From NCBI RefSeq assembly GCF_009720385.1, contig NZ_WARX01000014.1, positions 186,001 through 250,000 of the forward strand: a DNA stretch of 64,000 nt, written 5' to 3'. Shown here one piece after another: positions 9,090-56,682 of this stretch. This DNA comes from Catellatospora vulcania. Its GTDB lineage: Bacteria > Actinomycetota > Actinomycetes > Mycobacteriales > Micromonosporaceae. The notes below the pieces were generated by a model, which made no database searches, was not told where the DNA came from, and saw nothing but the letters and a program-made list of their open reading frames with translations. How positions within the stretch are numbered: the stretch's first letter is position 1; each line of letters starts with the position of its first letter. Made by a program: the position numbers and the translations under genes.

Positions 9090-9464
9090 GTGATTGTCTC
9101 GGTGGGCAACGACGTCGTCCTGGTCGACCGCTTCGCACAGGCGCTGCGGCGTACCCCCAATCTGACCGAGCGCCTGTTCACCGAGGCCGAGCGCACCACC
9201 CGCAGCGGCAACCCGCGCTCGCCGGAGTCGCTGGCGGCCCGGTTCGCGGCCAAGGAGGCCGTCGCCAAGGCGCTCGGCGCACCGGCCGGGATGCAGTGGC
9301 ACGACTGCGAGATCGTCGTCGACGCCGACGGCCGCCCCTGGCTGACCGTCTCCGGGACCGTCGCCGCGGTCGCCGCCGAGCGCGGCGTCGAGCGCTGGCA
9401 CCTGTCCCTGTCCCACGACGGCGGTATCGCCTCCGCCGTGGTCATCGCCGAGGCGGGCCTGTGA
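9090..9464 (+). CDS. acpS: Holo-[acyl-carrier-protein] synthase
   Basis: Transfers the 4'-phosphopantetheine arm of CoA to acyl carrier protein. The 124-aa protein, from a GTG, has the family signatures: N-terminal [11 protein letters not shown] with the metal-binding aspartate, and [12 protein letters not shown] with the catalytic Glu and Lys. The C-terminal [17 protein letters not shown] holds the conserved SHD. Its TGA overlaps a GTG that opens a 70-codon ORF leading to nnr, so the three are probably co-translated. Confidence 0.95.
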
Positions 9465-9673
9465 ACGCGTACCGCGGGCGGGCCGCGTCCAGGCCGCCGC
9501 TCGCGGCATGCAGTGCCGTGTCAGCAGGCCTTGCCGTGTCAGCGGGCCTCGCCGGTTCGGCAGGCCTTGCCGCGGCGGATACGGCAAGCACGCTCGTCTC
9601 CGATTCGGGCGCGAACGGGTGGTGCGGCGGGCGACACTCAGGCGCAGACGAGCGGAACGGAGCCCCCGCATGA
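9461..9673 (+). CDS. Bridging ORF between acpS and nnr
   Basis: A 70-codon ORF whose GTG overlaps the acpS stop (GTGA, 9461-9464) and whose TGA overlaps the nnr start (ATGA, 9670-9673). The predicted peptide begins [10 protein letters not shown], contains [12 protein letters not shown] and GSAGLA in tandem, and ends [10 protein letters not shown]. That end resembles the ADERSEEKA ending of the shorter bridging cassettes elsewhere in the window. I recognise no domain. It may serve mainly to carry ribosomes from acpS to nnr; a stable product is unproven. Confidence 0.4.
9518..9571 (+). repeat. Three tandem 18-bp repeats inside the bridging ORF
   Basis: Units at 9518-9535, 9536-9553 and 9554-9571 share the core tcagcaggccttgcc with few changes. 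The period is a multiple of three, so the reading frame is kept, giving the hexapeptide repeat [18 protein letters not shown]. Confidence 0.8.
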
Positions 9674-11175
9674 GGTCGGTCTACCGCGTGGCGCAGGTGC
9701 GGGCCGCCGAGTCCGCGCTGATGGCGACGCTGCCCGCGGGCACGCTGATGCAGCGCGCCGCCGCGGGGCTGGCCCGCCGCTGCGCGGTCACCCTGCGCGG
9801 GCTCGGCGGGGTGTATGCCTCCCGCGTGGTCCTGCTGGTCGGGCCTGGCGACAACGGCGGCGACGCGCTGCACGCCGGAGCGATGCTGGCGCGGCAGGGC
9901 GTCTGGGTCGGCGCGCTGCTGAGCGACCCGGAACGCGCGCACGCCGAAGGCTTGGCCGCGCTGCGCGGCGCGGGCGGCCGGGTGTTGACCGACTGGCCTA
10001 AACAGCTCGACCTGGTCGTCGACGGCCTGCTCGGCATCGGTGCCACCGGCGCGCTGCGCGGCACCGCGCTGACGCTCGCCGAGCAGCTCGCCGCACTGGC
10101 CCCGCGCCCGCCCGTGATCGCGGTCGACGTGCCGTCCGGGGTGGCCGTGGACACCGGTGACGTGCCCGGCACCGCGATCCGCGCCGACGTGACCGTCGCC
10201 TTCGGCTGCCTCAAGCCCGCGCACGTGGTCGGCCCGGCCGCGGTGCTGGCCGGGCAGGTGGAACTCGTCGACATCGGGTTGGTCCCGCACCTGCACGGCG
10301 ACCCGGCACTGCGCGTCGCCGACACCGCCGACATCGCCGCCTGGTGGCCGCAGCCCGGACCGGTCTCGGACAAGTACACCCGCGGCGTCGTCGGCGTGGC
10401 GACCGGCTCGGCCGGCTACCCCGGCGCTGCCCTGCTCTCCCTGTCCGGCGCGCTGGCCGGCCCGGCCGGGCTGGTCCGCTACGCCGGGTCGGCGCACGAG
10501 ATCGTGGTGCCCGCCCACCCGAGCGTCATCGCCGCGCCGCGCGTCGCCGAGGCGGGACGGGTGCAGGCGTGGGTCTGCGGCAGCGGCCTGGGCACGGACG
10601 AGCGGGCCGCGGTCGAGGTGCGGGGTGTGCTGGCCGCGCCGGTGCCCGCGCTGCTCGACGCTGACGCCATCACCCTGCTCGTCGACGGCTCGATGGCCGG
10701 CGAGCTGCGCAGCCGGGACGCGCCGACGGTGCTCACCCCGCACGACCGGGAGTACGCCCGGCTCGCCGGTCAGGACCCCGGCGAGGACCGGGTCGCCGCC
10801 GCCCAGAAACTGGCCTCGTGGACCCGGTCGGTGGTGCTGCTCAAGGGCGACCGCACCGTCGTCGCCGGACCGTCCGGCGAGGCCTGGGTCAACCCCACCG
10901 GCACCCCCGCGCTGGCCACCGGCGGCACCGGTGACGTGCTGTCCGGCCTGCTCGGCTCGCTGCTCGCGGCCGGGGTGCCCGCGATCCGCGCGGCGGTCGC
11001 GGCGGCCTACGTACACGGACTGGCGGGGCGCATCGCCGCCGACTCCGGCCCGGTCACCGCCGTCGACGTGGCCGCCTCCCTGCGCGCCGCGGTCGCCTCG
11101 CTGGGTGTCGTCGCGACCGGCACGGCTCCGGTACGCGCCGCCTTCGGCGCGGTCTACCGCAGCGGCCCCCCCTAG
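9670..11175 (+). CDS. nnr: Bifunctional NAD(P)HX epimerase / ADP-dependent NAD(P)HX dehydratase
   Basis: Repairs hydrated nicotinamide cofactors: the N-terminal domain epimerises NAD(P)HX and the C-terminal domain dehydrates the S-form using ADP. The 501-aa protein starts [14 protein letters not shown] at 9670, with GGAG 7 bases before. The epimerase half (about 1-215) has GPGDNGGDALHAG and VDVPSGV. The dehydratase half (about 220-500) is ribokinase-like with DADAI, LTPHDREYARL, KGDRTVVAGP and the ATGGTGDVLSG anion hole near the end. Length fits the fused E. coli Nnr. The start overlaps the bridging ORF, tying it to acpS. Confidence 0.95.
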   Translation: MRSVYRVAQVRAAESALMATLPAGTLMQRAAAGLARRCAVTLRGLGGVYASRVVLLVGPGDNGGDALHAGAMLARQGVWVGALLSDPERAHAEGLAALRGAGGRVLTDWPKQLDLVVDGLLGIGATGALRGTALTLAEQLAALAPRPPVIAVDVPSGVAVDTGDVPGTAIRADVTVAFGCLKPAHVVGPAAVLAGQVELVDIGLVPHLHGDPALRVADTADIAAWWPQPGPVSDKYTRGVVGVATGSAGYPGAALLSLSGALAGPAGLVRYAGSAHEIVVPAHPSVIAAPRVAEAGRVQAWVCGSGLGTDERAAVEVRGVLAAPVPALLDADAITLLVDGSMAGELRSRDAPTVLTPHDREYARLAGQDPGEDRVAAAQKLASWTRSVVLLKGDRTVVAGPSGEAWVNPTGTPALATGGTGDVLSGLLGSLLAAGVPAIRAAVAAAYVHGLAGRIAADSGPVTAVDVAASLRAAVASLGVVATGTAPVRAAFGAVYRSGPP

Positions 11176-11250
11176 CGGCCACGCCCCGCCGGGCGCACAC
11201 ATGTTGCGCCCACCCGCGACAATCGACGCGGATCAGGGGACGGAGGCAGC

Positions 11251-11853
11251 ATGGCGGACGCGTCGGCGGACTGGGCCGACCTGCTGCGAGCCGATCGGGA
11301 ATGCACCCGGGCCCGCGTTCGGATGGCGCCGGGCAACAGCGCGGCGGATGTGGCGGCGGGCCGGGCGGACCTCGTTCAGGCCGAGCAGGATTACGCCCGA
11401 TGCCTGGGCAGGCTGCTCGCGGGCGATCCGACCGAGGTTCTCCGGCACGGACTGTCGACGAAGACGCGGCACACCCAGGACGACCGCCGCGTGGCGGTCC
11501 ATGTCGTGTTCGAGGCGGAGGGCCTCCACCTCGACGTCATCCGCAGGCTGCTGCCGGAGTTGTTCGAGCTTTCGCTGGCTGTGCACTGGATCAGCGTCCG
11601 GATGTGGAAGGTCATCGGACAGCTGGACCCGCACGACCTGGTCGAAGACCTCACGCCGCTGGTCGCGGCGTTCCTGGCCGACCCGGAGCGCGACGCGTCG
11701 GAGTACTGGGGCGCCATCGGGCTGGCGCATCAGGTGCGACTCGTGCCGCTGGCGGACCTGCTGATGGATGCCGCCCGCCGCTCACCCGATCCGGAGATCC
11801 GCGGGGCCGCCGAGGGGTGGCACTACCCCGAGAACGACGCAGCCGAGTCCTGA
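11251..11853 (+). CDS. Hypothetical protein
   Basis: A 200-aa soluble, mostly helical, acidic protein that I do not recognise. It starts at an ATG with a strong GGGGACGGAGG binding site (11236-11246). No signal peptide, membrane helix or cysteine motif is seen. The middle contains HVVFEAEGLHLDVIRRLLPE and several Trp-rich turns (HWISVRMWKVIGQLD), followed by a HEAT-like helical end. It stands alone between nnr (same strand, 75 bases upstream) and convergent tsaE. Codon use matches its neighbours, so it looks native. Confidence 0.75.
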   Translation: MADASADWADLLRADRECTRARVRMAPGNSAADVAAGRADLVQAEQDYARCLGRLLAGDPTEVLRHGLSTKTRHTQDDRRVAVHVVFEAEGLHLDVIRRLLPELFELSLAVHWISVRMWKVIGQLDPHDLVEDLTPLVAAFLADPERDASEYWGAIGLAHQVRLVPLADLLMDAARRSPDPEIRGAAEGWHYPENDAAES

Positions 11854-11859
11854 CCGAGC

Positions 11860-12351
11860 TCAGCCGCGCTCGGCGGCGGCTTCCGACAGGGCCGCGACGC
11901 GGTCGGACCAGTCGCCGTGGTGGCCGATCAGGTCGACCGTGCGGGAGTCGTCGTCGCGGCGGTCGATGCGGACCTCGAGGTACGCGTCGGCGAGCTGCTC
12001 GACCATGCCCTCGCCCCACTCGACCAGGGTCACCGAGTCCTCGACCGACGCGTCCAGGTCCAGGTCGTCGACCTGGGCGCGGGGGTCGGTGACGTTGCCC
12101 AGCCGGTACGCGTCCACGTGCACCATCGGCACGGTGCCGCCCGCGGCCCGGTCGGGGCGGTGCACCCGGGCGATGACGAACGTCGGCGACGTGACGTCAC
12201 CGAGCACCCGCAGCCCGCGCCCGATGCCCTGGGCCAGCGCGGTCTTGCCGGCGCCGAGCGGGCCGCTCAGCACGAGGAGGTCACCGGCGCGCAGCACGGC
12301 GGCCAGCCGTACGCCGAAGTCGCGGGTGTCGTCGACGGTTGTGAGGATCAT
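11860..12351 (-). CDS. tsaE: tRNA t6A biosynthesis ATPase TsaE
   Basis: ATPase of the threonylcarbamoyl-adenosine (t6A37) tRNA modification complex, partner of TsaB and TsaD, which are encoded 2.5-4 kb away. The 163-aa protein has the Walker A GPLGAGKT at about 30-37, the family motifs SPTF in DVTSPTFVIA, the HVDAYRL segment and the conserved VEWGEGM. Its ATG overlaps the stop of the upstream alpha/beta hydrolase (ATGA). Gene order alr - hydrolase - tsaE is common in actinobacteria. Confidence 0.95.
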   Translation of the reverse strand: MILTTVDDTRDFGVRLAAVLRAGDLLVLSGPLGAGKTALAQGIGRGLRVLGDVTSPTFVIARVHRPDRAAGGTVPMVHVDAYRLGNVTDPRAQVDDLDLDASVEDSVTLVEWGEGMVEQLADAYLEVRIDRRDDDSRTVDLIGHHGDWSDRVAALSEAAAERG

Positions 12352-13487
12352 AGGAGCTCCAGCTCGTCCAGGAAGGTGACCAGCGCCTGGTTGACCTCGT
12401 CGGCGTGCTCCAGCATCACCACGTGGCCGCTGTCGGGGATCAGCACCAGTTTCGCGTGGGGCAGCAGCCGGCAGATCTCCTCGGAGTGGGACACCGGGGT
12501 GATCAGGTCTGCGTCGCCGACGACGACCATGACGGGCACCTGGTTGAGGGCGCGCAGGGCCGGGTAGCGGGCGTGGCTGTTGATGGTGCGCAGGTAGCGG
12601 GCGACGGTCTCGGTGGTGGTGCGCGAGTTCATCTGCTCCACGTACGAGACGAGGGCTGCGCTGGGCTTGTCGCCGCCGAAGCCGTACCGCCGGGTCAGCA
12701 GCCAGGCGAGGTCGGTGCTGGCCTGCCGGGCCTTGTCGATCATCGGGCCGGTGAACCGGGCCGCGCCGGTGAGCAGGGCGAGCAGCGGGCCGCTGGTGCG
12801 GTTGAGGATGTCGGGCAGGTTGCCGTAGCTGACGCCGTCGAGCTGGCCGCCGGAGGTGGAGATGAGCACGGCCCCGGCGACGCGGTCGGCGAACAGGTCG
12901 GGGTGCTGCTCGGCGCAGGCCATGATGGCCATGCCGCCCATCGAGTGGCCGACCAGCACGATCGGGCCGACCGGGGTGGTGGCCTTGATGACGTCGTAGA
13001 GGGCGTCACCGAGCGCGGGCAGCTCGTACTCGCCCTCGTGCAGGGCGGTGGACAGGCCGTGGCCGGGCTGGTCGTAGAAGACCATCCGGTGCTCGCCGAG
13101 CGCGTCGAGGGCCTTGCGCTGGAAGTGGAACGTGCCCTGGTCGAGGCAGAACCCGTGGACGAAGATGATGGTCGGCTCGGGCGGTCCGGCCTTGCCGTAG
13201 TCGACCGTGATCCCGTCGACCGGCTCGACGATCTCCACGTGCAGCTGTACGCCGTCGTCGGTGGTGACGGTGAGCGTCTCGTCGTAGGGCAGGCGGCCGA
13301 AGGGCTCGTCGGCGAACGGGTCGGTGTCCTGGCGGCGGGTGCGTTTGACGACCAGGCGCTCGACGGCGACACCCGCGGCGACGCCGGCCGCGGCGACACC
13401 GATGACGGCGCCGATCAGCCCTGCCTTGCGGCGGGTCGCCGGGACGACCTTGGCCACGGCCTTGTCCTCGGTCGTCGCGTCGCTCAC
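12348..13487 (-). CDS. Alpha/beta hydrolase with N-terminal membrane anchor
   Basis: A 379-aa alpha/beta-hydrolase-fold protein with unknown substrate. The GTG start at 13487 (VSDATTEDKAV) follows GGGGTGATCTC; a longer frame exists but runs into the bridging ORF. Residues 24-43 form one hydrophobic helix (LIGAVIGVAAAGVAAGVAVE), probably an anchor. The hydrolase domain shows HGFCLDQGTF (oxyanion region), the nucleophile elbow VGHSMGG, and a late GDADLITP with DSGHVVMLEHAD giving the acid and histidine of the triad. It sits between alr and tsaE with NTGA-type junctions on both sides. Confidence 0.88.
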   Translation of the reverse strand: MSDATTEDKAVAKVVPATRRKAGLIGAVIGVAAAGVAAGVAVERLVVKRTRRQDTDPFADEPFGRLPYDETLTVTTDDGVQLHVEIVEPVDGITVDYGKAGPPEPTIIFVHGFCLDQGTFHFQRKALDALGEHRMVFYDQPGHGLSTALHEGEYELPALGDALYDVIKATTPVGPIVLVGHSMGGMAIMACAEQHPDLFADRVAGAVLISTSGGQLDGVSYGNLPDILNRTSGPLLALLTGAARFTGPMIDKARQASTDLAWLLTRRYGFGGDKPSAALVSYVEQMNSRTTTETVARYLRTINSHARYPALRALNQVPVMVVVGDADLITPVSHSEEICRLLPHAKLVLIPDSGHVVMLEHADEVNQALVTFLDELELL

Positions 13488-13552
13488 GAGATCACCCCGT
13501 CGATGTGCATGCCGTGCCCTGCCGGGTGCCGTCGCAGGTTCCGCTCGCTCAC
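13484..13552 (-). repeat. Bridging mini-ORF between alr and the hydrolase gene
   Basis: On the minus strand a 22-codon ORF begins with a GTG overlapping the alr stop (GTGA) and ends with a TGA overlapping the hydrolase start (GTGA). The predicted peptide begins VSERNLRR, matching the VSERSER start of the cassettes between the ABC exporter genes, and ends GVIS. It looks like a diverged cassette retaining only the 5' half. Confidence 0.6.
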
Positions 13553-14685: not shown

Positions 14686-14780
14686 GAGTCCCAGCCTACC
14701 CAGCAGTACGCGGCGGACCCTCGAGGGCCGCGCCCGGTCCCACGTGGTGCCGCCCACTCCGGCCGCCCTGCCGAGCCGCC

Positions 14781-14840
14781 ATCGATCATGAACCTGTGAC
14801 CACGACACGCCGCCGAGCCGTGCCACAAGTTCATGATCAT
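14781..14840. repeat. Dispersed palindrome family B, copy 1
   Basis: A 60-bp imperfect palindrome with outer arms gatcatgaacctgtg (14784-14798) and its near-complement at 14824-14838 (one mismatch). A second copy at 30109-30168 matches at 52 of 60 positions, including the asymmetric centre acgacacgccgccg. Here it lies in the divergent alr/tsaB promoter region. Each arm begins with GATC. Confidence 0.8.
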
Positions 14841-14875
14841 CTGGGTGGGGCGGGCGGCACAGTAGGGTGGGGGGC

Positions 14876-15553: not shown

Positions 15554-15990
15554 AGATCGAGCGGCTGCGCTGGTGGCAGATCGAGGATCTGCTGCCGGTC
15601 GAGGCCGACCTGTTCGGCGCCGAGGCGTGGACCGCGGCGATGTTCTGGAACGAGCTGGCCAACGGCCACCACTACCTGATCGCCACCGAGGACGACGGCA
15701 CCGTGCTCGGGTACGCCGGGCTGGCCGTCGGCCAGGGCGAGGGCTGGGTCAACAACATCGCGGTACGCCGCGACGCGCAGCGGCGCGGCATCGGCCGGGC
15801 CCTGCTGGAGGCGCTGCTGGCCGAGGGCCGGCGGCACCAGGTGAAGCAGGTGCTGCTGGAGGTCGCCGCGGACAACACGCCGGCCCAGCGCCTCTATGCC
15901 GCCTACGGCTTCGAGGCGATCGGCATCCGCAAGGGCTACTACCAGCCCAGCAACACCGACGCACTGGTGATGCGCCGGGAAGAGCCGTGA
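15550..15990 (+). CDS. rimI: Ribosomal-protein-alanine N-acetyltransferase
   Basis: GNAT acetyltransferase of the RimI group, which acetylates the N-terminal alanine of ribosomal protein S18 in E. coli. The 146-aa protein has the acetyl-CoA loop [15 protein letters not shown] (about residues 74-88), preceded by the INNIAV-like strand (VNNIAV) and followed by the [17 protein letters not shown] signature. It overlaps tsaB by 4 bases. Its own stop opens a 12-codon bridging ORF that leads into tsaD. Confidence 0.93.
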
Positions 15991-16025
15991 CATACATCCG
16001 CGAGCGCAGCGAGGAGAAGGCGTGA
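15987..16025 (+). repeat. Bridging mini-ORF cassette between rimI and tsaD
   Basis: A 12-codon ORF ([12 protein letters not shown]) whose GTG overlaps the rimI stop and whose TGA overlaps the tsaD GTG. Its 3' part, gcgagcgcagcgaggag followed by aaggc, is the recurring cassette and supplies the tsaD Shine-Dalgarno sequence GAGGAGAAGG. Confidence 0.7.
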
Positions 16026-17068: not shown

Positions 17069-17094
17069 CTTTGCCCGGTGCTGTGGGCGACGAC

Positions 17095-17349
17095 GTGATC
17101 GTGCGTATGTGGGAGGTGCGCGCCTACCCGCGTACCTTCACCGATCTGCTGACCTGGGTGTGTGACGAGGCGGTGCCGCGGCTGGAGGTCGAGCCGCTGC
17201 ACATCGCGAGCGAGGTGTTCTCCTCGACGGACCTGCGCATCGTGGTGATCTCGCGCTGGCGCGGGGACCCCCGCCCCCTCGCCGACCCCCCCGACGGCCT
17301 CGCCGCCCGCTCCCCTCACGTCTGGGACTTCGCCCCCGTCGACCGCTGA
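17095..17349 (+). CDS. Conserved small hypothetical protein
   Basis: An 84-aa protein (VIVRMWEVRAYP...) just after tsaD. Other in-frame starts exist at 17083, 17101 and 17107; 17095 is chosen from the VIVRMWE start. The sequence has a beta-alpha-beta pattern with VFSSTDLRIVVISRWRG, suggesting a small ferredoxin-like (antibiotic monooxygenase-type) fold. The C-terminus is Pro/Asp-rich. I do not recognise a function, and no strong ribosome-binding site is seen. Confidence 0.6.
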   Translation: MIVRMWEVRAYPRTFTDLLTWVCDEAVPRLEVEPLHIASEVFSSTDLRIVVISRWRGDPRPLADPPDGLAARSPHVWDFAPVDR

Positions 17350-17384
17350 CCCGCCGCGCCGCCGCGGCCCGCCCCGGGGCGGTG

Positions 17385-17449
17385 AAGATCGCTGTTTCTG
17401 GTCGGAATCTGCGGTTCCACCTCACTGATCGACCCGAAACGGCGATCTT
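17385..17449. repeat. Dispersed palindrome family C, copy 1
   Basis: A 65-bp inverted repeat: arm aagatcgctgtttctggtcg at 17385-17404, near-complement at 17430-17449 with two mismatches, and a 25-base centre. The outer aagatcgctgtttc is shared with the palindrome at 42807-42869, while the centres differ. GATC occurs in both arms. Confidence 0.7.
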
Positions 17450-17554
17450 GGGCGCGTCGGTGGCTGTCGTGCGGGCGAGTGTCGGCGTGGCGTGGCGGCG
17501 CGGGCCGCAGCGGGCGGCGACGATGAGAGCCACCCCCGGTTCGAGGGGGTACGC

Positions 17555-19980: not shown

Positions 19981-21684
19981 ATGCGTTCCTTACCTCTGGC
20001 CGATCCCGGCACCCCCGACAGCAGGTCAGCCTTCCGGTATCTGTGGTGGCTGGCCTCGCACCAGTTCCGGACCATCGGCCTGGGCATGTTCTTCGGCATC
20101 ACCTGGATGCTGGTGGGCGCGCTGATACCCATGGTCATCGGTAAGGCGATCGATGCCGGCATCACCACCAAGGACACCTCCGCCCTGGCCCGCTGGGCCG
20201 GGGCGTTCATGCTGCTGGGGCTGGTGCAGGCGGGCAGCGGCATCATGCGCCACCGCAACGCGGTGTTCAACTGGATGTCGGCGAACTTCCGCACCGTGCA
20301 GGCGGTCGTGCGGCACGCCAACCGCCTCGGCGCGACCCTGCCCAAGCGCATGGCCACCGGTGAGGTCGTCGCCATCGGCGCCGCCGACACCAGCCACATC
20401 GGCAACGCGCTCGACATCACCGCCCGCGGCTCGGCCGCGGTCGTCAGCCTGATCACCGTCACCGTCATCCTGCTGACCGCGTCGGTCAAGCTGGGTCTGG
20501 TGGTGCTGCTCGGCGTGCCGGTGCAGATGGCGGTGGTGAGCCTGCTCATCAAGCCGCTGCACCGCCGCCAGCAGGCATACCGCGACCAGCAGGGGGCGCT
20601 CACCGGGCGGGCAGTCGACATCGTCGCGGGCCTGCGCGTGCTGCGCGGCATCGGCGGCGAGCAGGTCTTCGCCGACCGCTACCGGACCCAGTCGCAGCAG
20701 CTGCGCGAGGCGGGCGTACGGGCGGCGCGGATCGACTCGCTGCTGGAGTCGATCCAGGTGCTGATGCCCGGACTGTTCCTGGCCCTGGTCACCTGGCTCG
20801 GCGCGCGGCTCGCCGTCGCGGGCGAGATCGGGCCGGGTGACCTGGCGGCCTTCTACGGTTATGCCGCGTTCCTGGTCATGCCGATGCGCACGCTCGCGGA
20901 GATGCTGGAGAAGATGACGCGCGGCCATGTCTCGGCGGGCCGGGTGCTCAAGGTGCTGCGGCTCGAACCGGAGATCACCGCCCCGGCGTCGCCGCAGCCG
21001 CTGCCCGAACACGGCACGCTGGTGGACGTGAAGTCCGGCCTGTCCCTGCGGCCCGGCGTGCTGACCGTGCTGGCCGCGGACCGGCCCGAGGACGCGATCG
21101 AGATCGCCGACCGGCTCGGCCGGTACGCCGAGGGCGAGGTGACCCTGGGCGGCGTGCCGCTGTCCGCCGCGACGCGGGACGAGGTGCGCGCCCGCATCCT
21201 GGTCGCCGACAACAACGCCCGGCTGTTCAGCGGCCCGCTGCGCGAGGAGCTGGACCCCACCGGCACGGCCGTCGACGAGCAGATCCTCGCCGCGCTGCGG
21301 GTCGCCAGCGCCGAGGAGGTCCTCGACGCGCTGCCGGACGGCCTCGCCGCGTTCGTCGCCGAGCGCGGGCGGGAGTTCTCCGGCGGCCAGCAGCAGCGGC
21401 TGCGGCTGGCCCGGGCGCTGCTCGCCGACGCGCCGATCCTGATCATGGTCGAGCCGACCAGCGCCGTCGACGCGCACACCGAGGCCCGTATCGCGCGCCG
21501 CATCGGCCCCGCCCGGCAGGGCCGCACCACGCTGCTCGCCGCCACCAGCCCGCTGCTGCTGGACCAGGCCGATCACGTCGTCTTCGTCGACGACGGCAAG
21601 GTCATTGCCGAGGGCACCCACCGCGAGCTGCTGGCGGGCGAGCCCCGCTACCGCGCCGTGGTGACCAGGAGCGTGGACGCATGA
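19981..21684 (+). CDS. Heterodimeric ABC exporter subunit with degenerate ATPase (keeps only the signature motif)
   Basis: A 567-aa fused permease-ATPase. Residues 1-330 contain six membrane segments of the exporter type. The nucleotide-binding domain (about 340-567) is strongly degenerate. The Walker A position reads VLTVLAADRPEDAIEI (about 359-374) with no GxxGxGKS. The Q-loop region is VADNNARLFSG without the Gln. Walker B is LIMVEPTSA, with Val replacing the Asp. The H-loop histidine is replaced (LLAATSPLL). The LSGGQ signature is kept (FSGGQQQRLRLARALL, about 466). It must therefore pair with the next gene, whose defects are the opposite. The start at 19981 is the only one giving a sensible N-terminus; the ribosome-binding site is weak. 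Confidence 0.92.
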   Translation: MRSLPLADPGTPDSRSAFRYLWWLASHQFRTIGLGMFFGITWMLVGALIPMVIGKAIDAGITTKDTSALARWAGAFMLLGLVQAGSGIMRHRNAVFNWMSANFRTVQAVVRHANRLGATLPKRMATGEVVAIGAADTSHIGNALDITARGSAAVVSLITVTVILLTASVKLGLVVLLGVPVQMAVVSLLIKPLHRRQQAYRDQQGALTGRAVDIVAGLRVLRGIGGEQVFADRYRTQSQQLREAGVRAARIDSLLESIQVLMPGLFLALVTWLGARLAVAGEIGPGDLAAFYGYAAFLVMPMRTLAEMLEKMTRGHVSAGRVLKVLRLEPEITAPASPQPLPEHGTLVDVKSGLSLRPGVLTVLAADRPEDAIEIADRLGRYAEGEVTLGGVPLSAATRDEVRARILVADNNARLFSGPLREELDPTGTAVDEQILAALRVASAEEVLDALPDGLAAFVAERGREFSGGQQQRLRLARALLADAPILIMVEPTSAVDAHTEARIARRIGPARQGRTTLLAATSPLLLDQADHVVFVDDGKVIAEGTHRELLAGEPRYRAVVTRSVDA

Positions 21685-21752
21685 GCGAGCGCAGCGAGCG
21701 AATCATGTGGACGGGCCAGGCCGCCGACGAGCGCGGCGAGGAGAAGGCGTGA
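21681..21752 (+). repeat. Bridging mini-ORF cassette 1 between ABC exporter genes
   Basis: A 23-codon ORF starting at an ATG that overlaps the stop of the first ABC gene and ending in a TGA that overlaps the GTG of the next mini-ORF. The peptide starts MSERSERIM and ends AADERGEEKA. The 5' and 3' parts repeat closely in the next unit; the middle varies. Confidence 0.75.
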
Positions 21753-21826
21753 GCGAGCGCAGCGAGCGAACCATGCGGTGGGGGCAGTCTCATGCCGCCG
21801 ACGAGCGCAGCGAGGAGAAGGCATGA
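21749..21826 (+). repeat. Bridging mini-ORF cassette 2 between ABC exporter genes
   Basis: A 25-codon ORF in tandem with cassette 1. It begins VSERSERTM, ends AADERSEEKA, and its TGA overlaps the ATG of the second ABC gene. The final gaggagaaggc is that gene's Shine-Dalgarno sequence. Confidence 0.75.
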
Positions 21827-23562: not shown

Positions 23563-23585
23563 CCGCGTTCCGCAGCCCGTTCTTC

Positions 23586-23650
23586 ATAGACGTTGGCCTA
23601 TCTGGATGAGTTCGATCGCCGAATTCTCATCTGGATAGGCCAACGTCTAT
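23586..23650. repeat. Dispersed palindrome family A, copy 1
   Basis: A 65-bp element: 25-base arms at 23586-23610 and 23626-23650 (23 of 25 pair) around a 15-base centre starting ttcgatcgc. The first arm begins atagacgttggcctatctgg. A second copy at 52035-52099 has an identical first arm. This copy lies between convergent genes and its right end provides the TAG stop of the methylase gene. Confidence 0.85.
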
Positions 23651-30108: not shown

Positions 30109-30168
30109 ATCGATCAGGGACTTGTGGACACGACACGCCGCCGAACCGTGCCATAAGTTCATGATCAA
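30109..30168. repeat. Dispersed palindrome family B, copy 2
   Basis: Second copy of the 60-bp element at 14781-14840 (52 of 60 identical). Outer arms gatcagggacttgtgg and ccataagttcatgatc pair with three mismatches. The end of the element supplies the TGA stop (30165-30167) of the methyltransferase gene on the minus strand. Confidence 0.8.
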
Positions 30169-42775: not shown

Positions 42776-42806
42776 CACCCCGCCGTTTCACCGTCGCGCC
42801 GCGACA

Positions 42807-42869
42807 AGATCGCTGTTTCGTGTCAAAACCTCAGGTCTGACCCCAGGTTCCGACACGAAACAGCGATCA
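42807..42869. repeat. Dispersed palindrome family C, copy 2
   Basis: Perfect 17-bp arms gatcgctgtttcgtgtc (42808-42824) and complement (42852-42868), with further inner pairing aacct/aggtt. It shares the outer sequence with the element at 17385-17449. It lies between two genes on the plus strand. Confidence 0.8.
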
Positions 42870-42932
42870 TGCGTGGAAGCGGCGCGGCGGACGGGTCTTC
42901 CGGTTAGTTAACTGGCCGGTAATAATCTCGGC

Positions 42933-48567: not shown

Positions 48568-48587
48568 ATCCCGCTATCTGCTGATCG

Positions 48588-48614: not shown

Positions 48615-48731
48615 TTGATCACTTCTGGGGTAGGCCGAACGGCCGGTGCAAACCAGCGCATAGCGGTGGAAACATGATCGTAAAATCGGACATCTTGTCG
48701 TGATCTTCTCGCCGGGGGAGAATGGTTTCTC

Positions 48732-49691: not shown

Positions 49692-49726
49692 CCGGCCGTG
49701 TCGTGGGCGCCCGATAGCCTGTCGTG

Positions 49727-49795
49727 GTGAGCGAGCGCAGCGAGCGAATCATGACGCTTGGTCATGCCGCCGGCTTGCGTCAGCGAGGAGACGGC
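49727..49795 (+). repeat. Start cassette upstream of, and in frame with, the second Nudix gene
   Basis: Reads GTG then SERSERIM, a variable middle (TLGHAAGLRQRGDG) and runs in frame into the ATG at 49796 without a stop. It is the same cassette as between the ABC exporter genes, but here it could extend the protein by 23 residues if the GTG at 49727 is used. The 3' part supplies GAGGAGAC as ribosome-binding site. Confidence 0.65.
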
Positions 49796-50728
49796 ATGGA
49801 GAAGCGGCGGCGTATCGGGGCCTACGGCATAGCGCATGACGAGCAGGGCCGGCTGCTGCTGGTCCGCTCGTCGGCCAGGTCCAACTTCCCGGGCGTGTGG
49901 TTCCTGCCCGGGGGCGGCCTGGAGCACGGCGAGGACCCGGCGGCGGCCGTGGTCCGCGAGTTCCGCGAGGAGACCGGGCTGACCGCCCGCATCGCGGGCC
50001 TGCGCGAGGTGACATCCGACCTCGTCGAGTTCCCGTGGCGCGGGGTGCTGCTGCACCACGACCGGATCATCTACGACATGACGGTCACCGGCGGCGACCT
50101 GACCGTGGAAACCGACGGCACCTCCGACCTGCCCGCGTGGATCGAGCCGTCGCGGCTGGGTTCGCTGGACCTCATTCCCTTCGCCTCCCGCACGCTCGGG
50201 CTGGAGACCGCGGGCCCCGCCGCGGGGCAGCGGCCCGCCCGGCCCGACGAGTCGGGGGAGACGGGCCCGGACGGCCGCGACCTCGCCGGCGCGCGCAAGG
50301 TGGCCCGCTTCGGGGCGTACGGCGTGGTCACCGACCCGGCCGGCCGGGTGCTGCTGTCGCTGATCGCGGAGAACTATCCGGGCGCGGGCAAGTGGCACCT
50401 GCCCGGCGGCGGCACCGACTTCGGCGAGACCCCGCCGGTCGGCCTGGTCCGCGAGGTGTTCGAGGAGTCGGGGCAGGTCGGCGAGGTGACCGAGCTGCTG
50501 CGGGTGAACTCGACACACAATCCCGCCGCGATGGGCCCCGAGGGCGAGCCCTACGACTGGTATGTCGTGCGCGCCGTGTACCGGGTGGAGGTGCCGGAGC
50601 CCACAGTGCCGTCGGTCACCGAGGCGGTCGGCGGGTCCACCGCGCAGGCCCGCTGGTTCACCCACGCTGAGCTGGCCGGTATTCCGCTCACGGAGTCGGC
50701 TCACCGAGAATTGCGACATATTTCCTGA
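49796..50728 (+). CDS. Tandem double-Nudix hydrolase 2
   Basis: A 310-aa paralogue of the preceding gene, again with two Nudix domains (about 8-140 and 165-300). Both boxes are intact (GGGLEHGEDPAAAVVREFRE followed by ETGL, and GGGTDFGETPPVGLVREVFE followed by ESGQ). The linker (AAGQRPARPDESGETG) is Pro/Glu-rich. The ATG at 49796 has GAGGAGAC upstream and gives MEKRRRIGAYGI; an in-frame upstream GTG in the cassette could add residues. Substrates are unknown. Confidence 0.88.
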   Translation: MEKRRRIGAYGIAHDEQGRLLLVRSSARSNFPGVWFLPGGGLEHGEDPAAAVVREFREETGLTARIAGLREVTSDLVEFPWRGVLLHHDRIIYDMTVTGGDLTVETDGTSDLPAWIEPSRLGSLDLIPFASRTLGLETAGPAAGQRPARPDESGETGPDGRDLAGARKVARFGAYGVVTDPAGRVLLSLIAENYPGAGKWHLPGGGTDFGETPPVGLVREVFEESGQVGEVTELLRVNSTHNPAAMGPEGEPYDWYVVRAVYRVEVPEPTVPSVTEAVGGSTAQARWFTHAELAGIPLTESAHRELRHIS

Positions 50729-50948
50729 TTGCCGCTGTCGGGTAGACTCGGACGCTGACAAGACGAACAGCCCCCGGAGCGCTCATGCCCTCCGATGGGC
50801 GGATTGCCCCCGTCAGCAGGGACGGCGCATGAAGATCGCGCCGGGTATCGCCAAGGCACACGCACGTGTGCGATGGTGTAGGCCGCAAAAGCCGGTCGGT
50901 CCGCTGAGGCGGCGGAAAGGAACCGAAACCGGTATGGAGGGACGACAC

Positions 50949-51917: not shown

Positions 51918-52034
51918 CGCACAAGACCTACCGAGCGCCGCTCCGGTCCACTGGACCGGGGCGGCGCTTCTTGCGCTCGCTCCGTGCCCCGGCCGCTCCG
52001 CAGCCGCCGCACACCGCTTCGCGGCCCGTTCAAG

Positions 52035-52099
52035 ATAGACGTTGGCCTATCTGGATGAGTTCGATCGCGGTTTTCTCATCCAGATAGGCCAACGTCTAT
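52035..52099. repeat. Dispersed palindrome family A, copy 2
   Basis: 65 bp: perfect 25-bp arms (52035-52059, 52075-52099) around a 15-base centre. The first arm is identical to that of copy 1 at 23586; the centres share ttcgatcgc. It lies between convergent pssA and psd. Confidence 0.9.
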
Positions 52100-52165
52100 G
52101 CGAAAACGGACCGGGGCCGCGCCGCGTGGTGCGGCAGGGCCCCGGTCCGGGGGAGTGCGGGAGGG

Positions 52166-53422
52166 TCAGCGCAGGCGGGCGATGACCGTGGAGCCGCCCG
52201 AGACGCGGTCGCCGGGGGCGACCAGGGCCTCGGCCTTGTCGGCGGGCAGGTAGACGTCGGTGCGGGAGCCGAAGCGGATCAGGCCGAACCGCTCGCCCTT
52301 GGCCAGCAGCGCGCCGATCGGGGCCCGCTGCACGATGCGGCGAGCGATCAGGCCGGTGCGCTGGGCCACCACGACCCGGTTGCGGTCCGGCGTCTCCAGC
52401 ACGGTGTACGCGGCCACGTTGTGCTCCGCCTCCGGCTTCATCGCGTTGGCGTACCCGCCGTCCTCGACGAAGTAGTCGACGACCTTGCCGGCCACCGGGG
52501 CCCGGTTGACGTGCACGTCGAGCACGGACAGGAACACCGCGATGCGCAGGAACTCCTCGTCGGCGAAGCGCTCGTCGTAGATGTGCTCCACGCTGAGGAC
52601 CCGGCCGTCGGCCGAGGCGACGACAGCGCTCGGGTCGGCGGGGATCTCGCGCTCGGGGTCGCGGAAGAAGGCGGCCACGGGGGCGGCGAGCAGCGCGGGC
52701 AGCACCCACGCCTTCGACTTCGGGCGGGTGGCCTTGAGGAACGCGGCCGCGCCCAGCGCGATGCCGGCCGCCGCGACGCCGTTGGAGTCGATGTTCATGG
52801 TGCCGAACAGCGGCACGCTGGACGGGCGGAAGGCCGGGCTGAGTTTGCCGGCCACGCTCGGGTCGACGTCGGTGAAGCGCAGGCGGTGCACGCGTACCGG
52901 CGGGGTGTTGCGCAGCACCAGGTCGGAGCCGACGCCCTGGCGGGCGGCGATGCGGTCGAGTTCGTCGGTCGCCCCGCCGGACAGGCCGGGCAGCGCCACC
53001 GCGGCGATGATCAGCAGACCGCCCTCGGCGACGTACTTGCTCAGCTGCTCGACGGTGTTGCGCGCCTCCTCGCCGGAGCCGACCACCGGCTCGGCGACGA
53101 TGACCAGGTCGGCGGCCTCGGCCGCGGGCAGGTCGTCGACGACCTTGACCCGCTCGGCCAGGAAGCTGCCCAGGGTGGCCAGGTGGCCCGCGACGCTCGC
53201 GTCGGCGGCGACCACGGTGAGCTTGTCACCGGGCAGCAGCGCGTCCAGCGCCTCGGCCAGCACCAGCGAGTCCGCCGACGCGCCGACCAGCAGGGCGGTC
53301 TTGGGGCCCGCGTGGCGGGCCAGCTCGGTGGTCAGGGTGCGGGCGGCGCGGTCGCCGATCCGGATCTGGCCGAGGGGACCCAGCGCGGGGGCGCCGGGTC
53401 GATCGGTCGGGTGCTGGCTCAT
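52166..53422 (-). CDS. psd: Phosphatidylserine decarboxylase with N-terminal Rossmann-like extension
   Basis: Decarboxylates phosphatidylserine to phosphatidylethanolamine after self-cleavage to form a pyruvoyl group. The decarboxylase part (about 210-418) has VLDVHVNRAPVAGKV, the cleavage site RFGSRTDVYLP with Ser386 as the pyruvoyl precursor, and a short alpha chain after it. A hydrophobic hairpin (about 235-262) anchors it. Residues 1-205 form an extra domain (IRIGDRAARTLTTELARHAG, TALLVGASADSLVLAEAL, GDKLTVVAADA, GGLLIIAAVALPG) with the pattern of a SAM-dependent methyltransferase fold, though the glycine-rich motif is weak. Usual actinobacterial Psd proteins are about half this length. 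Confidence 0.9.
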   Translation of the reverse strand: MSQHPTDRPGAPALGPLGQIRIGDRAARTLTTELARHAGPKTALLVGASADSLVLAEALDALLPGDKLTVVAADASVAGHLATLGSFLAERVKVVDDLPAAEAADLVIVAEPVVGSGEEARNTVEQLSKYVAEGGLLIIAAVALPGLSGGATDELDRIAARQGVGSDLVLRNTPPVRVHRLRFTDVDPSVAGKLSPAFRPSSVPLFGTMNIDSNGVAAAGIALGAAAFLKATRPKSKAWVLPALLAAPVAAFFRDPEREIPADPSAVVASADGRVLSVEHIYDERFADEEFLRIAVFLSVLDVHVNRAPVAGKVVDYFVEDGGYANAMKPEAEHNVAAYTVLETPDRNRVVVAQRTGLIARRIVQRAPIGALLAKGERFGLIRFGSRTDVYLPADKAEALVAPGDRVSGGSTVIARLR

Positions 53423-53490
53423 TCCTTCTCCTCAGTGCGCTCGTCGGCGGCGTGACCGGGCGTAGTGGCTGGCTCGCTGCGCTCGCTCAC
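53419..53490 (-). repeat. Bridging mini-ORF cassette directly upstream of psd
   Basis: A 23-codon minus-strand ORF from GTG (53490) to a TGA overlapping the psd ATG. The peptide starts VSERSEPA and ends AADERTEEKE. Its 3' part supplies GAGGAGAAGG before psd. Confidence 0.7.
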
Positions 53491-53546
53491 GCCTGCTGCT
53501 CGCTGCGCTCGTCGGCAGCCTGACCGAGCGGGTCTTGCTCGCGCAC
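53487..53546 (-). repeat. Second bridging mini-ORF upstream of psd
   Basis: A 19-codon minus-strand ORF starting VREQDPLG and ending AADERSEQQA; its TGA overlaps the GTG of the next mini-ORF (GTGA). GAGGAGC lies just before its GTG. It has no larger gene upstream on this strand, so psd would be led by two linked micro-ORFs. Confidence 0.6.
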
Positions 53547-53649
53547 GGTGGCTGCTCCTCGTCGTCGTCGGCCGGTGTCTCACCGGTCAGCATAGAGCGC
53601 CCCCCACCGCGGGCTCGCGCGGTGAGGGGCGCTTGGTGGAGACGGGCGC

Positions 53650-53916
53650 TCAGCCGGCGCGCTCAGGCTCCGGCTCGGCGGCGGCCCCGACCGGCTCCGG
53701 CTCCGGCTCCGGTGTCGGCTCGACGGCGGCGGGCCGCCGGGGCGACAGCGCCCCGAGCACGGCCAGCACGCCCAGGATGATCAGGCCGCCGGCGATGAAC
53801 CAGCCCAGCGAGGGCAGCGCCACGTCGGTCACCTGGTCGACCAGGAAGGCGCCTGCCACGAGCAGGAAGATGAGGCCGAAGAACAGTGAAACCGAATCGG
53901 TGCGGTGGTTCTTCAC
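53650..53916 (-). CDS. Small two-helix membrane protein in the PspC operon
   Basis: An 88-aa protein from a GTG with GGAGGTGGT upstream. Two hydrophobic helices (SLFFGLIFLLVAGAFLVDQV and LGWFIAGGLIILGVLAVLG) are followed by a Pro/Glu-rich tail (EPTPEPEPEPVGAAA). The start overlaps the stop of the PspC/LiaF-like gene by GTGA. The two-helix layout resembles LiaI-type partner proteins of envelope-stress systems. Function is inferred from context only. Confidence 0.75.
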   Translation of the reverse strand: MKNHRTDSVSLFFGLIFLLVAGAFLVDQVTDVALPSLGWFIAGGLIILGVLAVLGALSPRRPAAVEPTPEPEPEPVGAAAEPEPERAG

Positions 53917-55229
53917 CGGACCACCTCCGCGTGACCGAGGTTGACGTCGAGTACGAGGTGCAGCTTGCCGGGGCCTGGCTTGCCGTCGTCGCCGAGGCTG
54001 GTCTGGGTGTCGCGCTGCCCGGCCCCGCTGATGCTGCGGCCGAAGACGTCGGCGTCGGCGAGGTTGACCTTGGTGACGACGGTGACGTCGGTGTCCGGCG
54101 GCAGGATGACCCTCAGGTCGCCGCCGGTGATCTGCGCGGTCACCTGCACGTCCTTGCCGGTCAGGTCGAGCCCGCTCAGGTCGAGGGTGGCCTCGCCGAA
54201 GCGGTGCTCGTACCGGTCGTGCAGCTCTTCCATGGTGGTGGGCATCCAGGTCACGCTGCCGGCCTGGGTGCGCTCGCGGCTCCAGTCGCCGGTCGCGGCG
54301 ACCATCGGCAGCGCCAGGGCGAGCACGATGCCGATCAGGATGTAGCCGCGGGCCCGGCCGAACCAGGCGCCGATGACCAGCCCGAAGCCCACCACACCCA
54401 GCGCGGCGGCGACGTAGAGGCTGCCCGGAACCGAGCGGCCGGTCATGTCGATCATGGCCAGGCCGCCGAGTGCGACCATGGCGAGCCCGAAGATCAGCCG
54501 GCCGAGCCGGGACGGCTCGCGCTTGATCTTGAGCGGCTTGGGCGGGAGCGGCGGGGGCGGCGGCGCGGCCGGGGCGTACGGCCCGTGCGGGGCGAACGGG
54601 GCCCGGTAACCGGCGGGGTCCACCGGCGGCACGGGCACCGTCACCGCGCTGGGCATCGGGGCGGCGGCCGGCACGGTGACCGGTGCCGCCGCGTAGTCGG
54701 GGGGCAGGTAGGTCGCGCCGGGGCGGCTGCGCGGCGGCTGGCCGCCGACCGTGTTGCGGCTCACCACGAGCGCGGCGATGACCAGCCCGATCGCGGCGAT
54801 GACGGCGACCTCGAAACTGTTGGTCACCGCACCGATCATGATCACCGTGAGTACGCCGATCACCAGCGTCAGCGTGGACGAGGTGCCCGAGTAGCCGCGG
54901 CCGAACAGCGCCTCGACCGGCGAGGAGCTGTCGCCCTCGGCCGGGGTGAGCAGCCAGGCCGCCAGGTAGATGACGATGCCCACGCCGAACACGGACAGCA
55001 CGCCGATCAGCACCCGCCACAGCAGCGGATCGGTCTTGGTGGCGCGGCCCAGTGCGCCGCACACGCCGGCCAGGTAGCGGCCGTGGCGCGGCCGGATCAG
55101 GCCGTACGGCGCCGCCCAGGAGACGTACGGGGAGGAGGGCTCGCCCTGGGGTGGGGGTGGCGCCTGTGCCGCGGGCGGAGCCTCCGCGGAGGGCACCGCG
55201 CCGGGGGGCGCCGGGGTCTCGTCGGTCAT
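53913..55229 (-). CDS. PspC and LiaF-type domain protein, envelope-stress sensor component
   Basis: A 438-aa membrane protein starting at ATG 55229. A Pro/Ala-rich N-terminus (1-45) is followed by a PspC domain (about 50-105; GRYLAGVCGALGRATKTDPL, then a helix FGVGIVIYLAAWLLTP). Further helices and a central proline-rich loop come next, with more helices at about 230-310. The C-terminal beta-rich domain (about 330-438; GEATLDLSGLDLTGKDVQVT, GDLRVILPPDTDVTVV) matches the LiaF/DUF2154-like cell-wall stress domain. It is divergent from a PspC-histidine kinase, forming a Psp/Lia-like cell-envelope stress module. Confidence 0.88.
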   Translation of the reverse strand: MTDETPAPPGAVPSAEAPPAAQAPPPPQGEPSSPYVSWAAPYGLIRPRHGRYLAGVCGALGRATKTDPLLWRVLIGVLSVFGVGIVIYLAAWLLTPAEGDSSSPVEALFGRGYSGTSSTLTLVIGVLTVIMIGAVTNSFEVAVIAAIGLVIAALVVSRNTVGGQPPRSRPGATYLPPDYAAAPVTVPAAAPMPSAVTVPVPPVDPAGYRAPFAPHGPYAPAAPPPPPLPPKPLKIKREPSRLGRLIFGLAMVALGGLAMIDMTGRSVPGSLYVAAALGVVGFGLVIGAWFGRARGYILIGIVLALALPMVAATGDWSRERTQAGSVTWMPTTMEELHDRYEHRFGEATLDLSGLDLTGKDVQVTAQITGGDLRVILPPDTDVTVVTKVNLADADVFGRSISGAGQRDTQTSLGDDGKPGPGKLHLVLDVNLGHAEVVR

Positions 55230-55363
55230 ATGACGATAGTCGCGCTGAGCTGGCCTGACCTGCCTCAGGCGGCGACCCTGAGCGGACCCTGAGAATGTCG
55301 GGTGGCCCATCTCCGGGGCTCACCCGTGGGCGATGGCGTCCACCTCGTGAAACCATCGACCCT

Positions 55364-56611
55364 GTGCAGCCCTCCGTGCCCGAGTACCCCCGCCTGACCC
55401 GCTCCCGCTCCGACCGCCTGGTCGCCGGGGTGGCCGGGGGCATCGCCGCGAACGTACGGCTGTCACCCACCCTGATCCGGATCGCCTTCGTGCTGCTGCT
55501 GCCGATCAACGGCCTGGGCGCGCTGCTGTATGCCGCCTTCTGGGCCGTGCTGCCCGCCGGGCCGGGGGAGACCCGTCCCCGCTCGCTGCTGCGGCTGGCC
55601 CCGTTCGTGCTGGCCGGGCTGGCGCTGATGACGGTGAGCACCCTGATCAACCGCAACGGCGGGATCGGGATGACCGTCGGCTGGCTGGTCGCCCTGGTCG
55701 CGGTCGGCGCGGGCATCATCTGGCACCAGAGCGACCCGGACCGCCGCCAGCGCTGGTCCGACGAGTCGCCGTCGGCGCCCTGGCTGGCCGCGCTCTCCGA
55801 CGGCGACCGCCGGATCTACCTGCTGCGCTTCCTGGCCGGCGGGGTGCTGGTCGCGGTCGGCATCCTCGGGCTGGTCTTCCTCTACTCCCCGGTCGCCAAC
55901 GTCTCCTGGGCCGACATGTGGCGGGCGATCGCGTTCGCGCTGGTCGCGCTCGCGGGCGTCGGCCTGGTGGCGGCACCGGTGCTGTGGCGCACGCTGACCG
56001 CGCTGCGCGCCGAGCGGGAGGGCCGCATCCGCGAGCAGGAGCGGGCGGAGCTCGCCGCGATGGTGCACGACCAGGTGCTGCACACGCTGGCGCTGATCCA
56101 GCGCAACGCCGCCGACCCGGCCGCCGTGCAGCGCATCGCCCGCGGCCAGGAGCGCAGCCTGCGGAACTGGCTCTACCAGCCCACCGGGTCGCCGACCGAG
56201 CACTTCGCCGCGGCGCTCCAGCAGGCCGCCGCCGAGGTCGAGGACACCTACGGCATCGCCGTGGAGGCGGTGGTGGTCGGTGACCGCCTGGTGGACGACA
56301 AGGTCTCGGCGATCGTGGCCGCGGCGCGTGAGGCACTGGTCAACGCGGCCCGCCACGCCAAGGTCAAGACCGTGTCGTTGTACGCCGAGGCGGAGCCGAC
56401 CATGCTGAGCGTGTTCGTCCGCGACCGCGGCGTCGGGTTCGACCTCAACGGCGTCGAGGAGCGGCGGCACGGCGTCCGTGGTTCGATCATCGGGCGCATG
56501 TCGCGGCACGGCGGCCACGCGGAGATCCGCAGCGAGGTCGGCGAGGGCACCGAGGTCAGGCTGACCATGACGGTCGCCTCGCCGAAGGAGCCCAAGGAGA
56601 CGCCGGCATGA
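55364..56611 (+). CDS. Sensor histidine kinase fused to an N-terminal PspC domain
   Basis: A 415-aa kinase starting at GTG 55364. Residues 10-70 are a PspC domain (RSRSDRLVAGVAGGIAANVR, then a membrane helix), followed by about four more membrane segments to residue 210. The HisKA_3 dimerisation helix has the phosphorylated His235 in ELAAMVHDQVLHTL. The ATPase domain has AREALVNAARHAK, VRDRGVGFD and GHAEIRSEVGEGTEVRL. It is of the LiaS/DesK group. The regulator gene follows through a bridging mini-ORF. The PspC fusion suggests sensing of membrane stress together with the divergent PspC/LiaF protein. Confidence 0.92.
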   Translation: MQPSVPEYPRLTRSRSDRLVAGVAGGIAANVRLSPTLIRIAFVLLLPINGLGALLYAAFWAVLPAGPGETRPRSLLRLAPFVLAGLALMTVSTLINRNGGIGMTVGWLVALVAVGAGIIWHQSDPDRRQRWSDESPSAPWLAALSDGDRRIYLLRFLAGGVLVAVGILGLVFLYSPVANVSWADMWRAIAFALVALAGVGLVAAPVLWRTLTALRAEREGRIREQERAELAAMVHDQVLHTLALIQRNAADPAAVQRIARGQERSLRNWLYQPTGSPTEHFAAALQQAAAEVEDTYGIAVEAVVVGDRLVDDKVSAIVAAAREALVNAARHAKVKTVSLYAEAEPTMLSVFVRDRGVGFDLNGVEERRHGVRGSIIGRMSRHGGHAEIRSEVGEGTEVRLTMTVASPKEPKETPA

Positions 56612-56682
56612 GCGGGCGACAGCGGGCACGGCAGGGCAGCGGGCGACGAGCCATGAACGAGCGTAGCGAGGAGCGGGCATGA
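56608..56682 (+). repeat. Bridging mini-ORF between kinase and response regulator
   Basis: A 24-codon ORF starting at an ATG that overlaps the kinase stop (ATGA) and ending in a TGA that overlaps the regulator ATG (ATGA). The peptide starts MSGRQRARQG and ends MNERSEERA. Its 3' half is a recognisable cassette copy; the 5' half has drifted. Confidence 0.7.

Follow-up and report, generated by a model that had tools for sequence, protein, structure and literature searches.

Here, we describe a dispersed repeat of Catellatospora vulcania that inserts at the start codon of genes (RTG, usually RTGA, where R is A or G). It was found in a stretch of 64,000 nucleotides (nt; assembly GCF_009720385.1, contig NZ_WARX01000014.1, positions 186,001 to 250,000 of the forward strand), which we call the window. 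Comparisons between copies and between species reveal where the repeat inserts, its orientation relative to the gene, the retention of its reading frame, its spread, and the covariation of two hairpins that it carries. We consider it likely that the repeat is a non-autonomous element of ~70 to 80 bp, similar to the mycobacterial interspersed repetitive units (MIRUs), in which a small open reading frame (mini-ORF) and a hairpin keep neighboring genes translationally coupled after the insertion at the start codon. A first-pass annotation of the window had proposed that mini-ORFs with NTGA overlaps at both ends belong to one sequence that spreads by insertion while keeping its frame and the coupling of the operon. 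The insertion, the spread, and the kept frame are all borne out by the data below, while the composition of the family and several of its details had to be revised.

In the genome containing the window (G000), we detected 54 exact right ends of the repeat, as compared to none for the reversed control pattern. A copy spans from one RTGA to the next, most often over 72, 75, or 78 nt, and its consensus, drawn by eye, reads RTGAGCGAGCGNAGCGAGCGAAYC, a variable linker, CAYGCCGCCGACGAGCGNAGCGAGGAGAAGGC, and the terminal RTGA. We collected 220 copies, unique by the copy together with its 30-base flanks, and retained 180 after excluding 40 that were not near full length; two loci of this set (L079 and L189) seem to be one place counted twice, and orthologous places in sister species were counted separately. 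The terminal RTGA, present in 174 and 175 of the 180 copies at the two ends, was partly imposed, as several search patterns and the profile seed demanded RTGA or TGA ends. In contrast, neither the patterns nor the seed imposed length modulo 3, internal stops, or gene context. We found that the length was divisible by three in 171 of the 180 copies and that none of these 171 had a stop codon within the mini-ORF frame, while stops were present in 29 and 78 copies in the other two frames. Thinning left 94 of 101 copies with a length divisible by three (p about 1e-36, for sequences that are still related after thinning). Among these data, the kept frame most clearly suggests that ribosomes may traverse the mini-ORF.

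To compare orthologous junctions with and without the repeat, we used a syntenic block of 81 to 179 kb from 11 species of a single genus, Catellatospora (G000 to G010), two of which had gaps. The repeat profile matched 14 times in G010, 13 times each in G000 and G004, 10 times in G006, 8 in G003, 6 in G007, 4 in G001, and 2 in G002. No profile match was found in the block of G005, G008, or G009, and a strict pattern detected one copy elsewhere in G005. The 57 arrays of the block fell into 16 junctions, several of which were empty in some species and filled in others. At one junction (cluster 21), the site gagcaggc-ATGA-gtt was empty in G004 and G010, while G000 carried 71 extra bases. The ATGA upstream of psd (cluster 48) was empty in G001 and G004 and was accompanied by 74 extra bases in G010, and a third site (cluster 1), TC-ATGA, was empty in G000 and G002 and filled in G004. 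At the start of a Nudix gene, the GTGG of G006 corresponded to GTGAGC...GGCATGG in G000, so that the first R of the copy is that of the native codon. At both ends of the insertions, no duplication longer than NTGA was detected. Furthermore, copies such as those of the pairs L137/L149 and L171/L074 were 96 to 97% identical, although their flanks were less than 50% identical in an ungapped comparison of 60 bases on each side; the very top of the list of copies ranked by identity was occupied by tandem neighbors. Thus, the empty and filled sites, together with the nearly identical copies next to unrelated flanks, demonstrate that the repeat spreads by insertion at start codons.

We then evaluated the position of the repeat relative to genes. 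Exclusion of out-of-frame copies and of copies lacking TGA at an end gave 138 arrays, of which 7 had too little flanking sequence, leaving 131. As judged by third-position G+C, the downstream coding frame started at the right RTG in 128 of the 131 arrays; one of the three exceptions (L161) lies upstream of tsaD, where a second, shortened copy follows the first. The upstream frame ended at the left TGA in 102 arrays, with at least 80 open codons in 92. Because 34 to 36% of random RTGA sites also passed the downstream test, this test alone is weak, and the two-sided stop/start junction is the one that counts. Such junctions were found in 89 of the 131 arrays, as compared to 43 of 1961, 33 of 2078, and 34 of 2118 random RTGA sites from G008, G003, and G010, respectively (1.6 to 2.2%). 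Tabulated in this way, the bridging noted in the first-pass annotation is far in excess of random sites.

Mutual information analysis revealed two stems on the coding strand. For this analysis, 193 copies were thinned to 101, copies without TG at either end were excluded, and the values were compared with shuffles. The left stem is formed by R1-Y23 and T2-A22, tandem G.A steps at positions 3-4 and 7-8 with G-C and C-G pairs between them, and a three-base loop. The right stem consists of Y-34:R-4, a GCC/GGC foot, the covarying pairs -30:-8 and -29:-9, tandem G.A steps at -27/-26 and -24/-23, and a GNA loop, and it encloses the Shine-Dalgarno bases of the downstream gene. Seven pairs exceeded the shuffles (p<=0.001), namely, L1-L23 and L9-L15 on the left and R-34:R-4, -33:-5, -32:-6, -31:-7, and -29:-9 on the right, and both stems scored better than every slid register that we tried. 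The pair L6-L18 showed no covariation (p 0.15), and several other stem pairs were invariant and hence uninformative. In each stem, the covarying base has the first base of a terminal RTGA as its partner. RNA folding of three right hairpins gave -16.6, -19.7, and -22.7 kcal/mol (z -2.9, -5.9, and -4.5), the second being a composite sequence that matches no locus examined.

Together, these data suggest how the repeat may act, and the mechanism that we infer from them is as follows. The repeat inserts at the RTG of a gene, usually RTGA and often a stop/start overlap within an operon, and its orientation is that of the gene. What had been the start codon of the gene would then become the start of a translated mini-ORF of ~25 codons, while the right end of the repeat would provide the gene with a new Shine-Dalgarno site and a start codon overlapping the mini-ORF stop. 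The right-end hairpin, acting on the mRNA, would hold both this site and the start codon, which would make the passage of ribosomes necessary. Most ribosomes reading the gene would probably be those that had translated the mini-ORF, melted the hairpin on the way, and reinitiated at RTGA. An insertion would turn one -4 overlap into two, and coupling would be kept.

Several observations weigh against this mechanism. The two-sided junction was lacking in 42 of the 131 arrays. Loss of frame was rarer where the upstream gene overlaps the copy (2 of 98) than elsewhere (7 of 51, p=0.008), but the difference was reduced to 2 of 98 versus 4 of 48 (p=0.09) upon removal of one doubly counted place and two in-frame Nudix fusions. 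The copy at 3047..3126 of the window, located in a 5' leader (cluster 39), is 77 to 81 nt long in other species and does not keep the frame. The start-codon pairs -36:-2 and -35:-3, in which the invariant T and G leave no room for covariation, formed in just 71 and 72 of the 101 copies. The left hairpin alone was an unremarkable fold (z +0.82), and one whole copy of 77 nt folded no better than its shuffles (z +0.76), with its right half pairing otherwise. DNA parameters weakened the right hairpins (z -0.8, -3.8, and -2.1). The stems could be under selection as single-stranded DNA.

As to the means of movement, which we likewise infer from sequence, two alternatives were considered. It is possible that no dedicated enzyme is involved and that the repeat spreads by short-homology recombination or template switching through GGC-RTGA-GC, a sequence common to the repeat ends and to many gene starts. 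Consistent with this, GGC before and GC after RTGA were enriched in the target flanks relative to 353 junctions taken from these genomes, a set that perhaps includes repeat ends. Tandem units (two to four each) in 21 of the 138 arrays and the existence of four short solo forms also fit such recombination. However, some insertions, as at the Nudix and psd genes, have just TG or ATGA in common with the target, and short homology does not account for the rule by which the stem pairs with the start codon.

Alternatively, the hairpins may serve movement instead of translation: a single-strand (HUH/Y1) transposase, of the type known from IS200/IS605 or RAYT, would recognize the coding strand folded as single-stranded DNA and insert on the 3' side of RTGA. 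We regard this as somewhat unlikely. The absence of any duplication beyond the NTGA at the two ends speaks for such an enzyme, as do the stem bases covarying with the first base of the terminal RTGA. Of the Catellatospora species surveyed, 6 of the 8 whose block contains copies have Y1_Tnp, as compared to none of the 3 whose block lacks them (p=0.06). In contrast, two species with copies, G000 and G002, gave no Y1_Tnp match, and the same was true of 7 among 11 additional genomes in which the patterns matched several times (G449, G535, G632, G728, G512, G873, and G862; for G512, the pattern matches alone were considered). Moreover, a search for the repeat in eight Y1 loci of about 3.1 to 3.4 kb gave no convincing match (best E=3.2), and a transposase acting on folded DNA would leave the kept frame unexplained.

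The reading as a coupled, start codon–inserted repeat was also weighed against three explanations of what the sequence does. The repeats might act as promoters or other transcription signals for the downstream gene. For mycobacteria, the available text of PMC4128351 reports that the number of MIRU repeats alters promoter activity and that parA is leaderless in Mycobacterium marinum, whereas a 77-nt leader in Mycobacterium bovis is a MIRU; that of PMC4213456 reports that the MIRUs of one spacer, confined to Mycobacterium leprae and the Mycobacterium tuberculosis complex, can drive expression and that the MIRU-bearing senX3-regX3 spacer drives expression of regX3. As a promoter function explains neither the kept frame nor the stop/start overlaps, we consider it improbable for the repeat studied here. 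A function of the peptide itself (SERSER...ADERSEEKA) was rejected as even less plausible: the frame is open in most copies, but the linker codons vary, with a median linker identity of 43% between non-orthologous copies of equal length, and the hairpins account for most of the peptide conservation. Synonymous-site conservation was dropped as evidence for the peptide once the free position of the CGN codon turned out to coincide with the central base of the GNA loop. Last, although stops are rare at 72% G+C, chance ORFs arising from codon bias and high G+C are refuted, virtually beyond doubt, by the absence of reversed matches against 54 right ends, the length modulo 3, and the empty and filled sites.

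Within the window, all mini-ORFs listed in the first-pass annotation exist where it placed them (Table 1). It had treated them as one cassette; a profile built from 54 copies matched seven of the listed places, while the mini-ORFs at the acpS-nnr and alr-hydrolase junctions are not copies. The former was rejected since it had no profile match and its length varied from 4 to 213 nt between species, being 80 in one; the latter had no match in the window, and true copies are present at the same junction in G002, G006, and G007. The acpS-nnr spacer, compared in 11 species, is a bare GTGA overlap in 3 and measures 33 to 213 nt in 8, bounded by RTGA at both ends; it is thus an expanding sequence distinct from the repeat. 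The overlaps, described as always NTGA, are not invariably so, given that the copy at 53487-53546 begins with GTGC and the Nudix copy ends with ATGG. Nor is bridging of gene pairs general, as the Nudix and psd copies have no upstream gene stopping there, whereas the in-frame fusion of the copy at 49727 to the Nudix gene was confirmed. The gene names agreed with Pfam, except that rimI is supported as a GNAT acetyltransferase only and the "kinase" is a PspC plus HATPase_c protein.

Table 1. Copies of the repeat, their hairpins, and similar mini-ORFs in the window.
Feature	Position	Strand	Basis
Full copy 1, RTGA to RTGA; mini-ORF MSERSERIMWTGQAADERGEEKA; flanked by two ABC transporter genes	21681..21752	+	ORF list, profile match, Pfam
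Full copy 2, tandem; mini-ORF VSERSERTMRWGQSHAADERSEEKA; stop overlaps start of second ABC gene	21749..21826	+	ORF list, profile match, Pfam
Left hairpin of copy 2 (positions 1 to 23)	21749..21771	+	Covariation across copies
Right hairpin of copy 2; Shine-Dalgarno GAGGAG and start ATG of downstream gene paired; GNA loop	21790..21826	+	Covariation, RNA fold
Near-full copy upstream of psd; site empty in G001 and G004	53419..53490	-	ORF list, profile match, species comparison
Second copy on psd side; begins GTGC; recognizable in right part only	53487..53546	-	ORF list, profile match
Shortened copy, right end only; junction of GNAT acetyltransferase gene and tsaD	15987..16025	+	Profile match, species comparison, Pfam
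Near-full copy at GTG start of Nudix gene, in-frame fusion; site empty (GTGG) in G006	49727..49799	+	Profile match, species comparison, Pfam
Degenerate copy between PspC/HATPase gene and LuxR-type regulator; matching right end at 56656-56682	56608..56682	+	ORF list, profile match, Pfam
Degenerate copy absent from first-pass annotation; ends at ATG of minus-strand ORF 2469-3050	3047..3126	-	Species comparison
acpS-nnr mini-ORF, NTGA at both ends; not a repeat copy	9461..9673	+	Without profile match
alr-hydrolase mini-ORF, NTGA at both ends; repeat likeness limited to first codons	13484..13552	-	Without profile match

No Rfam family scored above its gathering threshold in the window. Other repeated sequences were observed there. 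An 85-nt repeat, 87% identical between 23566-23650 and 52015-52099, has perfect inverted arms of 25 to 26 nt (ATAGACGTTGGCCTATC...) and represents another dispersed palindrome family. Stem-loops AAGATCGCTGTTTC occur at 17385-17450 and 42805-42871, a 59-nt pair at 14781-14839 and 30109-30167 is 88% identical, and a 51-nt inverted pair lies around CTCTTTAAGAG at 63442-63546. As regards variants of the repeat itself, four loci (L391, L395, L405, and L410) carry solo forms of 30 nt, still in frame, in which a single core is flanked by RTGA on either side; recombination between both cores of a full copy would produce such forms.

The repeat was also searched for in other genomes. Named genomes contained at least 103 loci; among the matches listed, 100 were in Catellatospora and one each in Streptomyces sp. 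CBMA123, Nocardia crassostreae, and Plantactinospora alkalitolerans. The last, from another genus of the Micromonosporaceae, had at least one match to a two-part pattern (L182). Across 394 genomes of the class, the strict two-ended pattern found no match outside the genome of the window. The right-end pattern matched in 34 of the 394, mostly once, and such single matches mean little as the reversed control also scored once in a number of genomes. Streptomyces sp. CBMA123 (G449) showed 54 core matches as compared to 17 reversed. We assembled 25 full copies from this genome and three others of a genus that we take to be Streptomyces, excluding rows without a recognizable right end. The length was divisible by three in 22 of them, and the first-base pair was G-C in 12, A-T in 12, and A-C in 1, so that the pairing rule was obeyed in 24 of 25. 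The Nocardia copy was in frame with a G-C first-base pair.

The left-end pattern matched 234 of 392 genomes of the genus taken for Streptomyces. Among 30 loci fetched, 29 of which were read, 17 were one conserved leader ORF, 7 were MIERSEV matches, 1 was a true copy (L347), and 4 were others. The leader ORF (gaagtagtacgaca-ATGAGCGAGCGGAGCGAG..., 114 to 144 nt) ends with ATGA at a gene start in this genus and is possibly an old copy that became fixed (L343, L345, L349, L352-L357, L359-L363, L365, L368, L370, L397, and L407). Two other actinobacteria, G438 (L444) and G196 (L454), had 5 and 4 right-end matches in different surroundings, perhaps belonging to other families.

In a genus that we take to be Mycobacterium, the right-end pattern matched 64 of 118 genomes, at up to 31 places in one, while the reversed pattern gave 3 matches overall. 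For 30 of these MIRU-like loci, with one row each, stem positions 4, 10, 13, 14, and 16 exceeded the shuffles (p 0.003 to 0.008), while positions 5 and 17 did not; the loop and the first four pairs were imposed by the pattern, and a few rows were plainly other sequences. A register slid by 2 performed nearly as well (0.40 versus 0.43 of cells paired).

These findings imply that a MIRU-like repeat exists beyond the mycobacteria and that its hosts are soil genera amenable to direct tests of movement and coupling. The covariation suggests how the repeat could land on a start codon and leave the gene unbroken, as it brings along a ribosome site gated by a hairpin together with a bridge that is in frame. 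At operon junctions of actinobacteria, some small ORFs would thus be landing marks of a repeat, and the gene starts adjoining them may be misannotated.

The repeat shares features with three known systems. Ordinary translational coupling at RTGA also combines a stop/start overlap with a hairpin over the downstream ribosome site; in Catellatospora, however, the presumed coupling unit is a dispersed, copied sequence. Mini-elements derived from IS200/IS605 and the REP/RAYT systems have imperfect hairpin ends on one strand and a short target word. The Catellatospora repeat resembles them in both respects but differs in that its copies lie at gene starts in one orientation with an in-frame ORF, and in that the Y1 transposase is missing from several genomes with copies.

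The closest likeness is to MIRUs. The first-pass annotation knew of no published description, which does not hold for the kind of element: the available text of PMC12548453, citing Supply et al. 1997, describes MIRUs as mobile repeats whose insertion at a start codon creates a -4 overlap and which carry a coupled small ORF, and also presents models of coupling through a hairpin over the downstream ribosome site. The Catellatospora repeat is likewise short, dispersed, present in many copies, and tandem in places; it sits at start codons or stop/start overlaps with -4 spacing, and its small ORF overlaps the neighboring ORFs at its ends. The core GAGCGNAGCGA.GAG and the terminal RTGA are common to it and to the MIRU-like copies of the genus taken for Mycobacterium, although this was imposed by the search pattern, and the latter copies show a hairpin around the shared core. 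The likeness in sequence and structure may be due to kinship or to convergence. In contrast, its hosts are Catellatospora, Streptomyces, Nocardia, and Plantactinospora, and because it is found outside mycobacteria, we call it MIRU-like and not a MIRU. It also consists of two hairpins joined by a variable linker, and its stem reaches into the start codon, whereas many MIRU-like copies have extra bases between the stem and RTGA. We found no report in the open-licence literature of such repeats outside mycobacteria or of a MIRU hairpin. Hence, as far as we found, the occurrence outside mycobacteria, the two-hairpin form, and the covariation are new, while the kind itself is known. Tentatively, MIRUs and the repeats of Catellatospora, Streptomyces, and Nocardia might be members of a single superfamily of mobile hairpins in actinobacteria, for which start codons serve as attachment sites. 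Such an element would read the first base of the start codon, its Y23 on the left and Y-34 on the right pairing with whichever purine, A or G, begins the terminal RTG, and A-type copies would therefore reside at ATG and G-type copies at GTG.

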